From Fusobacteria bacterium ZRK30 (GTDB lineage Bacteria; Fusobacteriota; Fusobacteriia; Fusobacteriales; Fusobacteriaceae), in contig CP102405.1 of assembly GCA_024628785.1 (NCBI GenBank), positions 1,736,001-1,800,000 on the forward strand: 64,000 bases of DNA, in the 5' to 3' direction. Positions 2,160 through 38,414 of this stretch are shown here, piece by piece. The notes below the pieces were generated by a model. The model was not told the DNA's origin. It was given only the letters and a program-made list of their open reading frames with translations, and searched no databases. Position 1 is the stretch's first letter. Each line of letters begins with the position of its first letter. Made by a program: the position numbers and the translations under genes.

Positions 2160-2765
2160 TTAGTCGACAGTGTCATCAAACTTGGTACCTACTAGATCTG
2201 CACCAGTTAAATTTACACCACTTAAGTTTGCACCACTTAAATCCGCATCTCTTAGATTAACATTCCTTAAATCAGCATTCCTTAAATTTGCATCTCTTAA
2301 ATCAGCACTCCTTAAATTTGCATTACTTAAGTCAGAATTACTCAAGTTAGCAAGAACTAATTTTGCACAAGTTAAATTAGTCCCGGTTAAATTAGTATTG
2401 CTTAAATCAGCATCAGTTAAATTTACACCATATAAATTTGCACCACGTAAAATATTAGCACTTAATTTAGCACAGCATAAATTTGCATTACGTAAATTTG
2501 TATAACTCAGATCAGTATTATTAAAATCAACACCACATAAATTTGCATAGCTTAAATCAGCATATATAAAATGAGTATCAGCTAAATCGATATCACGTAG
2601 ATCAGCACAAGTTAAGTTCACATTAGTTAAATTTGCATTACGTAAATCAGCATTACGTAAATTAGCATAACTTAAATCAAGATCCCTTAAATTCACATAA
2701 CTTAAATCGGCATTACGTAAATTCGCTTTCCTTAAATCACCACTTAAATCCTCAGATTGTAACAT
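2160..2765 (-). CDS. Pentapeptide-repeat protein
   Basis: Nearly all of the 201 residues are A(D/N)LxX pentapeptides, from about residue 14 to 195, for example ADLRNANLTNVNL. Such proteins fold as a right-handed quadrilateral beta-helix; some (Qnr, MfpA) mimic DNA and protect gyrase, but most have no known role. No signal peptide or other domain is visible, so it is probably cytosolic. AAGGAGG lies six bases before the ATG. The DNA itself is repetitive, with TTAAATTTGCA-like units, so copy-number change by slippage is plausible. The same 16-base sequence flanks both sides of the gene. Confidence 0.9.
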   Translation of the reverse strand: MLQSEDLSGDLRKANLRNADLSYVNLRDLDLSYANLRNADLRNANLTNVNLTCADLRDIDLADTHFIYADLSYANLCGVDFNNTDLSYTNLRNANLCCAKLSANILRGANLYGVNLTDADLSNTNLTGTNLTCAKLVLANLSNSDLSNANLRSADLRDANLRNADLRNVNLRDADLSGANLSGVNLTGADLVGTKFDDTVD

Positions 2766-2852
2766 AAAAACCTCCTTTTTAAATTTCTGTAACCATTAAA
2801 AATCTACTGATTATATCTAAAAAATTTTTAATGAGTTTTCAAGTCGGGCATA

Positions 2853-2868
2853 TTTTCCTCTATGGAAT
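2853..2868 (+). repeat. Direct repeat, right of the pentapeptide gene
   Basis: Exact second copy of TTTTCCTCTATGGAAT (first at 2119-2134). Confidence 0.5.
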
Positions 2869-3021
2869 TCTTTTTAAATCTATTTCTTATATAATTTTTT
2901 TCCATAAACTGCTTCCTCTTTATTTTTTTCATAAAATTAAGAATTAGTATACCATTTTTATTGAAACGTTGAAAGTCTAAATTTTAAAACTTAATGAGTT
3001 TAATTAATTTAATCAAAAAAA

Positions 3022-3058
3022 TAAAAAAACAGAATTAAAAAACATTCTGTTTTTTTAT
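3022..3058 (-). terminator. Terminator closing the riboswitch unit
   Basis: AAAAACAGAAT and ATTCTGTTTTT pair around a short A-rich loop, with T runs in both directions. It lies 20 bases past the end of the frameshifted zinc-ribbon gene and would end the transcript that starts near 3642 on the minus strand. Confidence 0.75.
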
Positions 3059-3077
3059 AAATTAATACTTCTTTAGA

Positions 3078-3225
3078 TTAAATTCTACCCCTTACTCCTC
3101 TCGCATAACTTACTCTATTCTTTTTACATAATGGACAAATCTTCTTATATGGAACTCCATTAGAATCTAATTCCATTTTAAATTCTCTTTTACATTATCA
3201 AACATAATATTTTTTCCTTTACCAT
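3078..3225 (-). pseudogene. Frameshifted small two-CxxC zinc-ribbon protein
   Basis: From ATG at 3225 the frame reads MVKEKILCL and then hits a stop; shifting by one base restores CKREFKMELDSNGVPYKK and ICPLCKKNRVSYARGVRGRI to TAA at 3078. The intact paralogue at 38227-38373 (KIKCLKCKKEF, VDSKGIPYKKICSNC, GRG near the end) shows where the break is: four bases stand between the Leu and second Cys codons where three are expected. It is therefore a one-base insertion, or a sequencing error. The product would be a roughly 48-residue zinc knuckle of unknown role. It is the second ORF downstream of the c-di-GMP riboswitch. Confidence 0.7.
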
Positions 3226-3258
3226 AATTTCACATCTACAAATAAAAACTACAAAGTA

Positions 3259-3414
3259 TCAGGTATTATTTTTTACAATTTGTTTCTTTTCTAAATTGTT
3301 TATTTTTTTCTCTAAATTTTCTAAAATATAAATTAATTCATTAACTCCTTCTTGATCTTTATATTTTTTTAAAATTTGATATTTCAAACGATTAATTAAA
3401 TCAATATCCACCAT
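3259..3414 (-). CDS. Micro-protein (51 aa) behind a c-di-GMP riboswitch
   Basis: The frame starts at ATG 3414, has GGTGG just upstream, and ends with TGA. The product (MVDIDLINRLKYQILKK...) is lysine- and leucine-rich and looks wholly alpha-helical, with a heptad-like ILENLEKKINNLEKK segment that could be a short coiled coil. I do not recognise a family; it lacks the SQELD motif of Spo0E-like peptides. It is the first ORF after the riboswitch and its terminator, so its expression is probably controlled by c-di-GMP. Whether it is translated cannot be shown from sequence alone. Confidence 0.55.
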   Translation of the reverse strand: MVDIDLINRLKYQILKKYKDQEGVNELIYILENLEKKINNLEKKQIVKNNT

Positions 3415-3497
3415 CCACCACCTTTTTAATTTTTTATAACTTATTTTTTAGTTGATTAATTTCATTTTTGCTTTTTAAACTTAAAATTATGCAAATA

Positions 3498-3537
3498 AAA
3501 AAGAGGCTATATTATTTTTTAAAATAGCACCTCTCTA
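3498..3537 (-). terminator. Riboswitch expression-platform terminator
   Basis: Read on the minus strand, AGAGG-T-GCTAT pairs with ATAGCCTCT and is followed by TTTTTT. It begins about 8 bases after the 3' end of the c-di-GMP aptamer and ends before the 51-residue ORF, so readthrough here decides expression of the downstream ORFs. Whether ligand promotes or prevents termination cannot be told by eye. Confidence 0.8.
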
Positions 3538-3544
3538 AAAAAGT

Positions 3545-3620
3545 TTGGCAACTGGCTGTCATATCTATAGACTTAGACCCTTTAGTTTTGCGTCATAGGA
3601 TTTCCCCTACTTTGCCTTTT
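3545..3620 (-). ncRNA. Cyclic di-GMP-I (GEMM-I) riboswitch
   Basis: On the minus strand the conserved aptamer is complete: GGCAAA, a short hairpin capped by a GAAA loop (GUAGG/CCUAU), GACGCAAAAC, then AAAGGGUCUAAG, a short second helix, GACAGCC and the closing GUUGCC that pairs with GGCAAA/C. These are hallmark blocks of class I c-di-GMP riboswitches, which sense the second messenger in the nascent transcript. The aptamer begins about 20 bases after a good sigma-70 promoter and is followed at once by an intrinsic terminator. The only ORFs downstream before the next terminator are two micro-ORFs. Confidence 0.95.
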
Positions 3621-3648
3621 TCAGAATTATTTTTTCTTAATTATAGTT

Positions 3649-3677
3649 ATATTATCATAACAGTTTATTTTTTTCAA
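3649..3677 (-). promoter_or_regulatory. Sigma-70 promoter of the riboswitch unit
   Basis: On the minus strand TTGAAA (3677-3672) and TAATAT (3654-3649) are separated by 17 bases. The expected start near 3642 would give a transcript that opens almost directly into the c-di-GMP aptamer. Confidence 0.7.
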
Positions 3678-3823
3678 CTACACTATACTTAAAACAAATT
3701 TAAAATCAATTAAAAAGAAGTGTTAAAAGTAAGGAAATAACCCCTCCAAATACAGAATTTGTATGATTGATCTATTTTTTATTTAGTAATATAAGTGCTT
3801 TTGCTCTCAAAAATATCAGTTGA

Positions 3824-4531
3824 TTATTTTTCAATTACTTTTCCATCCTTAAAGGTTGTTTTGAATTCAATCTCGCCGTTTTTATCATATATAATTTGAA
3901 TCCCATTTCGCTTCCCATTTTTAAAATTAACATCTACTAAAACTTTCCCATCTTTATAGTAACCAGTCCACTCTCCTGTATATGGCGTTTTTTTATTTTT
4001 TTCATATGCTATACCATCCTTATACTCTAAGACAACCTTATCTTTAATTAATTCCAATTTTTTCCTATAATCGTTAACATTAAAAGTAAAATTTTGGACT
4101 TTAGAGTACTTTCCATAGATAATAACTTTGATTTCTCCATTACTTTTTTTTATAAAATTTTTAATTTTTTTTGCATCATAACTTTTATATTGTGGAAAAT
4201 CAAAAGCATACATAGAATTTAATCTCATATTTAAAATTTCATTATTTGAATTTTTCATTTTAACGGTAATGTCTTTCATATTGGATTTAACCCTTCTAGA
4301 ATACCCATATTCATAAGTATTAAAAGATACAAAGTTTGTCCCGACTTTTAGAAACCCTTCTAATTTAGAACCCCTTGTTACAGCATTGGAAAAAGTCCCA
4401 TTTTCTATACTTGTTACTATTGCGACAGCTCCAGTTTTGTCACCAAATTCATCCACTTGATTAACTGATCTCCATTCTGAGCCAAACATGGCACTGTATA
4501 ATAAAAACATTGTTAATATAATTTTTTTCAT
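3824..4531 (-). CDS. Secreted MORN-repeat-like protein
   Basis: The 235-residue product begins MKKIILTMFLLYSAMFGSEW, a typical signal peptide with likely cleavage after Gly-Ser, so it is probably periplasmic or outer-membrane associated. The C-terminal part (from about residue 185) has MORN/toxin_WG-like units: YTGEWTGYYKDGKVLVDVNFKNGKRNG, then IIYDKNGEIEFKTTFKDGK. Fusobacterial genomes often encode such short MORN-like secreted proteins; their role is unknown. The middle region has no domain I recognise. The IS21 element ends 88 bases upstream of its start, within or close to the promoter region, so expression may be altered. Confidence 0.75.
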   Translation of the reverse strand: MKKIILTMFLLYSAMFGSEWRSVNQVDEFGDKTGAVAIVTSIENGTFSNAVTRGSKLEGFLKVGTNFVSFNTYEYGYSRRVKSNMKDITVKMKNSNNEILNMRLNSMYAFDFPQYKSYDAKKIKNFIKKSNGEIKVIIYGKYSKVQNFTFNVNDYRKKLELIKDKVVLEYKDGIAYEKNKKTPYTGEWTGYYKDGKVLVDVNFKNGKRNGIQIIYDKNGEIEFKTTFKDGKVIEK

Positions 4532-4619: not shown

Positions 4620-4732
4620 TGTAAAGGGTAATATAAAATTGACCCTTTTGAGATAAAAAAGGCAGCTAATTATTGACCCACCCTAATATTACTCTGTACA
4701 ATCTTTTTAAAGAGATGTACAGGAGGTTTGAG

Positions 4733-6102
4733 GTGGCAATTCATATGGATACATATAAAAAAATTAGACGACTTCATCTAGTTGAAGGGGTTTCTATTAG
4801 AAAAATTTCTAGAGATCTTCATATTTCTAGAAACACTGTTAGAAAGTATATTAATGGAGATACAATTCCTGGAGAAAAAAAGTTTTCTTCTCGAGGAAAA
4901 CAAGTTATGACTAGAGAAGTCTTAGACTTTATTGAAGCTTGTATTTTTGAAGACAACGAGCATACTCATTCAAAACAGAGGCACACTGCTAATAGGGTTT
5001 GGGTTAGACTCAAAGAAGAGGTTGGGTTTCTTGGTTCATATTCTTCTGTTAAGGTTGCATTTAGAGAATTAAAAGGTAAAACAAAAGAGGTTTTTCTACC
5101 ACTTACCTTTAATCCTGCGGAAGCTATGCAAATTGATTTTGGTTCAGCGCATATCTTTCTCAATGATGAAAAGCAGGAAATAAAATATTTTTGTGCTCGG
5201 TTAGCATATAGCGCTCATATCTTTACTAAGGCCTACTTCGCAGAAAGAGAAGAATGTTTTTTAGATGGGATCATCTCTGCTTTTGAATATTTTGGTGGTA
5301 TTCCTAGAGAAGTTCTCTTTGATAATGCCAGAGTTGCTGTATCAGAAGGCTATGGAAAACATGTAACTAAAATAACTAAAGGGTATGAACTCTCGTTGCT
5401 CATTATGCTTTTAAACCTAAATTTTGCAATGTTAGAAGTGGAAATGAAAAAGGTTTGGTTGAAAATTTAGTAGGACTTATCAGAAGAAATACTATGGTTC
5501 CTATCCCTAGAGTTAAAAGTTTGAATGAGTTAAATATCAAAATAAAAAAGGCTTGTGATAACTACTTAGAAAATCATAAAGTTGGCGGTGAAAGCTTAAG
5601 TGTTAAACAAAAATTCCAGATTGAAGCTAATAACCTTTTAGAGCTTCCTAGCCATTCACTAGATATTTCTAAAAGAGACTATAAAAGAGTCACTAAGTTT
5701 TCAACTGTAACTTTTGAAACTAATAAATATTCATTACCCTGTGAATTAGTAGGAACTGAGGTGATTTTAAAAACTGGTCATTCAGAAATACAATTTCTTC
5801 ATAAAGGTAAAGTTGTTGCAATTCACCAGAGAATATTTAAAAAAAATAAGCATAGTTATCAATTAATTCACTATCTTAAAGCTTTAGAAAGAAAACCGCG
5901 AGCTGTATTTAATGCTGATCCAGTTATACAAAATATTCCTAAAGCAATTTTTGAAATGTATCACTCTAAAGGAGATTCAAAACTCTTTTTAGAATATCTA
6001 AGAGAAGAAGTCGGTCTTCCTAAAATCAACGACCAAATAGAAGTTCAAAGAAATAATTTAGGTAAATATGATAACTTAATTTCCCAAGAGGTGATCCAAT
6101 GA
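4733..6102 (+). pseudogene. istA: IS21 transposase IstA, frameshifted
   Basis: IstA is the DDE recombinase of IS21 elements. The chosen start is GTG 4733 with AGGAGG six bases upstream. An N-terminal helix-turn-helix (VSIRKISRDLHISRNTVRKYI) is followed by the catalytic core (AMQIDFGSA with the first Asp; FDNARVAV with the second). Around 5395 the frame is lost: after GKHVTKITKGYE the reading frame ends at 5470, while the next frame continues AHYAFKPKFCNVRSGNEKGLVENLVG to 6102. A one-base deletion between the YEL and AHY codons explains this. The C-terminal part is otherwise complete. Confidence 0.88.
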
Positions 6103-6831
6103 GTGTAATTAGTGAAAAAATTAAACTTTTTTCCAAAGCTTTAAAACTATCTAGCTTCAAAGACTATCATGAGGTTCAGCGCCAAGCAATAAATTCAAAA
6201 CAAGGATATGAAGAATTTCTGCTTACACTATTAGAAAAGGAAGTATTAACTAGACAAGACAATAAACTTTTCAGGTTAAAGCGCGGAGCTAAATTTCCCT
6301 TTGAAAAAACGCTAGAAGAGTTTGAAGTTAAACGTCTTAGCTATTTAAAACCTTCAGTAGTAGGCGAACTCTCCAGCTGTGAGTTTATCAAAAAAAAAAG
6401 AAAATATAATAATGATAGGGAACCCAGGAACTGGAAAGACACATCTTTCTATAGCTCTAGGACTTAAAGCTTGCAACTGTGGACATAAGGTGTACTTTAC
6501 TACAGCTGCTAACTTATCAAATAAATTAGTTGAAGCGCAAGAAAATAGTAATTTAGGGAGATTCTTAAGGCAATTAGCAAGATTAGATCTACTCATAATA
6601 GATGAGCTTTCCTACCTCTCCTTTAACAAACATCAATCAGAACTCCTATTTCAAGTGATTTCAGAAAGAAGTGAGAGGGGAAGTATTATAATTTCTACTA
6701 ATTTAGCATTTTCAGAGTGGGAAGAATTCTTCCCTGATACAATGTTAACAACAGCTTTAATAGATCGCGTAACATTTAGAGGACATATTTTAAACATGAA
6801 TGGTGACTCTTACAGGGTCTCTGCGAAATAG
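6099..6831 (+). pseudogene. istB: IS21 helper ATPase IstB, frameshifted at an A10 run
   Basis: IstB is the AAA+ partner of IstA. The first 94 codons (MSVISEKIKLFSKAL...) run into a stop at 6467 after an A10 tract at 6390-6399; the next frame continues with Walker A GNPGTGKTH, Walker B LLIIDEL, and SNLAFSEW near the C-terminus to 6831. A run of nine A would join them in frame (CEFIKKKENIIMIGNPGTGKTH), so this is a +1 change in a homopolymer. It could be a mutation, a read error, or a site of transcriptional slippage that makes some full-length protein. Confidence 0.88.
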
Positions 6832-38226: not shown

Positions 38227-38373
38227 TTAAACGGCTCCACTTAATCCTCGTCCATATTTTTTATTGTGTTGTTTACAGTTTGAACATATTTTTTTATACG
38301 GAATCCCTTTTGAATCCACTTCCGTTATAAATTCTTTTTTGCATTTTAAGCATTTTATTTTTTTCTTCTCCAA
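38227..38373 (-). CDS. Small two-CxxC zinc-ribbon protein, 48 aa
   Basis: The gene starts at TTG 38373, six bases after GAGGTGA. The product MEKKKIKCLKCKKEF ... VDSKGIPYKKICSNCKQ ... ends in GLSGAV. Two CxxC knuckles about 19 residues apart should bind one zinc ion, as in many nucleic-acid or protein-binding micro-proteins. The same design occurs in the frameshifted ORF at 3078-3225. Two copies conserved in spacing argue that it is a real gene family. Function unknown. A TTTTGA-17-TATAAT promoter lies upstream. Confidence 0.72.
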   Translation of the reverse strand: MEKKKIKCLKCKKEFITEVDSKGIPYKKICSNCKQHNKKYGRGLSGAV

Positions 38374-38414
38374 GAAAATCACCTCTTTTATCATTTTTAT
38401 TTGAATAATTACAA

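Follow-up and report, generated by a model that had tools for sequence, protein, structure and literature searches.

A c-di-GMP-I riboswitch ahead of two micro-ORFs in Fusobacteria bacterium ZRK30 and its likely origin by duplication

Introduction

The targets of c-di-GMP-I riboswitches in C. difficile include, according to the accessible part of PMC11477304, several small hypothetical proteins, two antitoxin RNAs and one orphan riboswitch, the small proteins being of 58 aa and without conserved domains. Four of the small-protein riboswitch regions are 88–93% identical and, in the available portion of PMC3649979, are attributed to duplication. The riboswitches of CD1424, CD1990.3, CD2309 and CD3368.2 resemble the unit dealt with here in their class I aptamer, their small hypothetical proteins and their duplicated copies, and premature termination is reported by northern blot for Cdi1_9 (accessible parts of PMC11477304 and PMC3649979). 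They differ in that they belong to another phylum, that class I is called OFF, and that those parts of the papers mention no zinc ribbon; the proteins can be likened by description only. The orphan riboswitch, between CD2517 and CD2517.1 (same portion of PMC11477304), is a class I aptamer without an assigned target, whereas the present locus contains a conserved-looking ORF in two species. No rule is overturned by the present unit, an example in another phylum of what C. difficile is known to have with its small-protein and orphan c-di-GMP-I riboswitches. Literature searches for ‘c-di-GMP riboswitch’ with ‘small ORF’, and for Psychrilyobacter with c-di-GMP, found no paper.

The window is a stretch of 64,000 nucleotides (G000:C2:1736001-1800000) of G000, the 3.6-Mb genome of the source, which is a marine member of the Fusobacteriota; the genome contains ten c-di-GMP-I elements. 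The genomes most often named below are G007 (sister species), G002 (a third species with a short-P3 aptamer) and G011 (outside the genus); the genus of G000, G007 and G002 is probably Psychrilyobacter, judging from the named relatives of the zinc-ribbon gene. It is our opinion that the locus quite likely holds a c-di-GMP-I transcription-termination riboswitch duplicated from that of a phosphodiesterase gene and now heading a lineage-specific micro-operon. If this riboswitch responds to c-di-GMP, the second messenger would be linked to two unstudied micro-proteins in Psychrilyobacter.

Results

Layout of the riboswitch unit

The unit runs along the minus strand from position 3677 to 3023 of the window and is formed, in this order, by a promoter-like site, a c-di-GMP-I aptamer, a terminator-like hairpin, a 51-codon frame (ORF51), a zinc-ribbon ORF and a closing hairpin. 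The promoter-like site (3649..3677), TTGAAA-N17-TAATAT with TG before the -10, scored 9 of 12 in a promoter scan. Since the scan itself performed no better than chance (15 sites versus 13.9 expected in shuffles, sd 3.1), support for the site comes from its retention in the sister species G007 as TTGAAA-17-TAACAT, with the N17 spacing kept. The aptamer (3544..3626), with a short P3, is followed by the first terminator-like hairpin and its U-tract (3497..3536), located by folding (-10.3 kcal/mol when folded alone). The 5′ arm of this hairpin, AGAGAGG, and the 3′ strand of an extended P1 overlap. ORF51 (3259..3414) has an SD-like AGGTGG upstream. The zinc-ribbon gene (3078..3225), of 48 codons, is frameshifted by one extra base near 3195-3203, and the closing terminator-like hairpin, CAGAAT...ATTCTG plus a T-run (3023..3056), was read from the sequence. 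A simple terminator scan of 2400-4400 called no terminator, the closing hairpin included; by our reading, it missed the first hairpin because the stem is interrupted. The promoter and both hairpins are based on folding, sequence reading and conservation in G007 rather than on automatic scans.

The self-contained unit proposed in the initial annotation was borne out, as all its parts were located. The syntenic locus of G007 also keeps promoter, aptamer, hairpin, ORF51 and zinc ribbon, among shared neighbours of 84–96% identity. The proposal that the riboswitch controls only micro-ORFs was supported in part, these two being the only sense ORFs between the riboswitch and the closing hairpin. Neither an HD-GYP-type gene nor any other large gene directly follows the riboswitch (the first 450 nt contain no start of an ORF that reaches 100 aa), and no remnant of one was recognized at the locus by inspection. 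Elsewhere in the window, istA/istB genes, IS21-like as read from the sequence and each split in two frames, lie at 4673-6831 (+).

Identity and conservation of the aptamer

At threshold, Rfam gave a single match for the whole window, RF01051 at 3626..3544 (-), covering the full model (1-87) with 78.1 bits (cut-off 35) and E 1.2e-13. The RF01051 alignment places in it a P2 GAAA tetraloop and the conserved core GGCAAA / GACGCAAA. The ligand-selectivity position, which we take to be that of G20 in Vc2, would correspond to one of two bases of the window GGCAAA, and both are G in the alignment. The factor described for selectivity is that base being G rather than A (PMC9262584, in the part available).

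Aligned over ~132 columns, the aptamer and hairpin of G000 and G007 show 3 substitutions and a single 1-base indel (about 97% conserved), while neighbouring genes show dS values of 0.29–0.68, which indicates more than chance similarity. Judged from its sequence, the element is a real, conserved c-di-GMP-I riboswitch; it would be functional and act on transcription termination, presumably in response to the ligand. This conservation, with a local dS of about 0.3 or more, argues against the locus being an orphaned relic in which, after loss of a large gene, the riboswitch slowly decays and the frame of ORF51 is open by chance. Eroded riboswitch loci do exist, such as G011:C1:84873, with a 14-codon stub after a start codon in the hairpin, and G000:C2:1723226, with an 83-aa fragment after the riboswitch; even so, we regard this alternative as unlikely, also in view of the coding evidence given below for ORF51.

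In G002, the locus C4:17529 has the same short-P3 aptamer and hairpin, without the 51-aa ORF. Its orthology, which is based on the shared short P3, is a weak assignment. A maximum-likelihood tree of the long aptamers was discarded because of low supports and an alignment end that was out of register in those elements that lack one A.

Genes downstream of c-di-GMP-I riboswitches

The search for c-di-GMP-I elements covered 41 genomes (the source and 40 relatives), 13 of which had a match, 12 of them over the cut-off; 62 of the 63 matches listed were over the cut-off. An element was counted as having a large gene when an ORF of at least 100 aa started within 450 nt, a rule by which fragments of broken genes also count (e.g. 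G000:C2:1557197). On this basis, a large ORF followed 52 of the 62 elements above cut-off: 27/33 in the genus (all elements of the five members having any) and 15/16 and 10/13 outside it. The four misses outside the genus were two 97-98-aa frames, MarR-like by reading, one contig end and the 14-codon stub of G011. The six in the genus were the present locus in G000 and G007, G002:C4:17529, G000:C2:1723226, G007:C2:1332129 and G002:C9:41769. Large genes as the usual targets of class I switches are thus confirmed for the genus as a count, but small-protein and orphan cases have been described before in C. difficile (PMC11477304, PMC3649979, as far as their available text goes). As a separate observation, a c-di-GMP-I riboswitch abuts the SD of ~120-130-aa proteins of tetratricopeptide type, a label taken from the annotation of Ilyobacter polytropus plasmid pILYOP02, at L127:4001-4511 (that plasmid), L072 (G000:C5), L078, L088 and L100.

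The last three elements in the genus list (L141:7227, L142:8130 and L143, respectively) form a second set without a large gene directly downstream, in which the aptamer and terminator are near-identical and the downstream sequence diverges. In the G007 copy, an A replaces the first G of GGCAAA, possibly what we assume to be the ligand-selectivity base. The 83-aa fragment of the G000 copy shares 38.6% identity with a protein of 176 aa whose gene lies downstream of the G002:C9 riboswitch. That aptamer and terminator stay near-identical across species at two c-di-GMP-I loci lacking a large gene, while the downstream part diverges, would fit an RNA product, namely a c-di-GMP-binding sRNA of ~130 nt that ends at the terminator and acts in trans or as a sink for the ligand. 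Control in cis can, however, explain the retention, and the conservation of ORF51 is of the coding type, so that an RNA product seems to us very unlikely. In a broader and frankly speculative version, which we hold to be improbable, Psychrilyobacter keeps the two loci without a large-protein product either as stand-alone c-di-GMP-responsive small RNAs or as drivers of fast-evolving micro-proteins (helical hairpin plus zinc ribbon) that constitute an unrecognized c-di-GMP output module.

Paralogous riboswitches and probable origin by duplication

The aptamer, the extended P1 (UUCUGAAAAA/UUUUUUAGAG) and the hairpin recur near-identical before genes of 725-731 aa at G000:C1:450330, G007:C3:1056058, G002:C6:41590 and G007:C2:1158983. 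At G000:C2:1557197, the riboswitch precedes the same large gene, there broken into three frames; the riboswitch-headed HD-GYP-type gene at L113:9420-11645 is interrupted in G000 by two single-base indels and intact in G007. The ~727-aa protein of G007 contains HD_5 (E 1.7e-33) and HD domains, plus SBP_bac_3 with 5.8e-5, under its cut-off; HHEKWNGKGYG, in its HD region, is what we take to be an HD-GYP-like motif without the final P. The ~727-aa genes are putative c-di-GMP phosphodiesterases.

Compared to these HD-GYP-type riboswitches of Psychrilyobacter, the window copy shares aptamer, extended P1, hairpin and a vestigial ATG/GTG-CTA-TTT, and differs by the lack of a large gene, an A6 in the hairpin loop and a shorter P3; the AG duplication that it carries is common to some of the paralogues. 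The vestigial start is GTG-CTA-TTT in the window hairpin. In the genus, ATG or GTG followed by CTATTT occurs in the hairpin of 8/9 elements inspected, with a stop after 3–4 codons in 7/8. Two HD-GYP-type genes of G011 start inside the hairpin, their first codons forming the 3′ arm; at G011:C1:80200 the first match of the start-codon pattern is not the likely start. Since the start pattern persists in the genus hairpins and the G011 genes start there, the window hairpin may be read as the remains of the start region of a large gene, put to use in another transcript. At G011:C14:25181 (L095) and G011:C1:80200 (L097) both the SD and the start codon of the controlled gene lie within the terminator hairpin, and it is signal-peptide-like codons that make the 3′ arm.

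A large partner was probably ancestral to this riboswitch family. Regarding the possibility, raised at the outset, that relatives carry a large gene that was deleted here, near-identical blocks do precede ~727-aa genes in the same and sister genomes, but the lack of a recognized remnant leaves a deletion at this very locus without a trace. According to the explanation that we prefer, the riboswitch would have been copied from one preceding the ~727-aa sensor genes (an SBP_bac_3-like part plus an HD-GYP-type domain), in an order of events that is conjectural, and the promoter–riboswitch block would now head a short transcript with the 51-aa helical-hairpin protein and, presumably co-transcribed, the 48-aa zinc ribbon. 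The loci can be arranged as a comparative series of partner change: the gene starts within the terminator (G011), the start codon has shifted further downstream and the old one is vestigial (HD-GYP-type genes of Psychrilyobacter), or the large gene is absent (window locus, G002:C4, G011:C1:84873).

Direction of the switch

In the mechanism envisaged, c-di-GMP would stabilize P1, and as the 3′ strand of P1 and the 5′ arm of the terminator have AGAG in common, high c-di-GMP would favour read-through (ON). In the available portion of PMC9262584, a switch is of the ON type when P1 and terminator exclude each other and of the OFF type when the two coexist. For the class I switches of C. difficile, the direction given is OFF (PMC11477304, accessible part).

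All 10 pairs of the extended P1 can form in 13/14 elements examined. When elements were folded with P1 forced or blocked, pairing of the terminator base was lower with P1 forced in 8/9 genus elements, the exception being G007:C3:494226 (0.42 vs 0.39). Exclusivity was clear for the AGAGG paralogues, with 0.17–0.22 forced versus 0.76–0.81 blocked (0.17 vs 0.80 in G000:C2:1557197), and partial for the AGAGAG copies (window, G007, G000:C1:450330 and G007:C3:1056058), with 0.59–0.64 versus 0.84–0.95, the window copy giving 0.59 and 0.95. In the minimum-energy fold of the window copy, P1 coexists with a shortened terminator because of the AG duplication. Among five elements of G011, the ON pattern appeared in C14:25181 and C9:28208, was faint in C1:84873 and absent in C1:80200 and C28:13975.

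The pilM ON-switch and the Cd1 OFF-switch are comparable systems, where an aptamer strand competes or coexists with the terminator, and the P1/terminator geometry of the genus matches that of pilM. The differences are that pilM binds c-GAMP and that the competition in the window copy is only partial, its coexisting fold being as much like Cd1 as like the ON type (PMC9262584, same portion). From these folding models, we lean slightly towards the window copy being a c-di-GMP ON switch. If true, the ON direction would mean negative feedback for a phosphodiesterase, which concerns the paralogues.

The 51-residue protein

In the first 44 codons of ORF51, 5 synonymous and 3 non-synonymous changes separate G000 from G007 (dS 0.25, dN 0.028, ratio 0.11, Fisher p 0.004). 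With simulated random substitutions, the frame stayed open with at most 3 amino acid changes in 0.4–4.6% of trials, depending on the transition fraction. The spacer ahead of ORF51 differs by a 48-base indel. The comparison, which amounts to eight substitutions in two species, favours ORF51 being protein-coding and, presumably, translated. The bias to synonymous changes, together with the intact zinc ribbon of G007, speaks against the decaying relic mentioned above, while the narrow distribution of ORF51 and the frameshift in the window zinc ribbon are what such a relic would lead one to expect.

ORF51 was found in 2/98 Fusobacteriota genomes, G000 and G007, with E below 1e-19; a third match, with E 0.004 inside a 736-aa frame, was taken as chance. 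So, concerning its conservation in Fusobacteriota, the ORF is restricted to two genomes but is kept in the sister species with coding-type changes. It was not found in the genome_contigs, viral_contigs and plasmids collections. A single-sequence AlphaFold model consists of two helices (mean pLDDT 91), in agreement with the helical product without a recognized family that had been predicted: no usable family and no meaningful score came from Pfam, PHROGs, NCBIfam or PADLOC, the PADLOC ‘Cyclase’ match having 15.5 bits and aligning 32 residues with a model of 419 positions. A comparison of the sequence with solved structures returned designed coiled coils only, and Foldseek, queried with the AlphaFold model, reached no E value below 2.3. 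At G000:C1:760610 (L118:8362-8712), a helical segment and a zinc ribbon form one in-frame fusion, and this segment was compared with ORF51 after viewing ~20 zinc-ribbon loci; the score of 57 was reached by 3/2000 shuffles, and homology is not claimed.

The zinc-ribbon gene

Compared to G007, whose ORF is intact at 48 aa, the window zinc ribbon (3225..3078) has one extra base and a neighbouring substitution; its match to the family profile contains stops. Since single-base indels versus G007 occur in other genes of G000 as well (the HD-GYP-type gene and a permease-like one), the frameshift could be a sequencing error. The broken zinc ribbon, the presence of ORF51 in so few genomes, its absence from the G002 locus and the lack of a recognized large-gene remnant are among the points that count against the preferred micro-operon of duplicated origin.

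The zinc-ribbon family is multi-copy and occurs in 10/98 genomes of 2 genera. Its named relatives come from a Psychrilyobacter MAG and an unclassified Fusobacteriaceae MAG. The family profile found one IMG/VR viral contig, with the copy beside a gene that reads as lysozyme-like, and no solved structure; single-sequence searches gave no plasmid or phage record.

Five zinc-ribbon copies lie within ~1 kb of a c-di-GMP-I element: downstream of the riboswitch and on the same strand in the window, G007 and G002, and divergent from an HD-GYP-type riboswitch in G000 and G007. This linkage may be functional or may be inherited from one ancestral neighbourhood. It also raises the alternative that the zinc ribbon is the selected output, paired with the riboswitch, and ORF51 a lineage-specific insertion. 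The zinc ribbon is indeed downstream within about 350 bases in all three short-P3 genomes, being in G002 (99% complete) the only copy, ~350 bases from the riboswitch, and the divergent copies are within about 800 bases of theirs. Nevertheless, the G002 gene has a promoter-like TTGGTA-N17-TATACT of its own, as read from the sequence, most of the genus copies lie away from c-di-GMP-I elements and the window copy is broken; a pairing of this kind is a tentative alternative, on the doubtful side. A second zinc-ribbon copy, intact, is present in the window at 38227-38394 (-).
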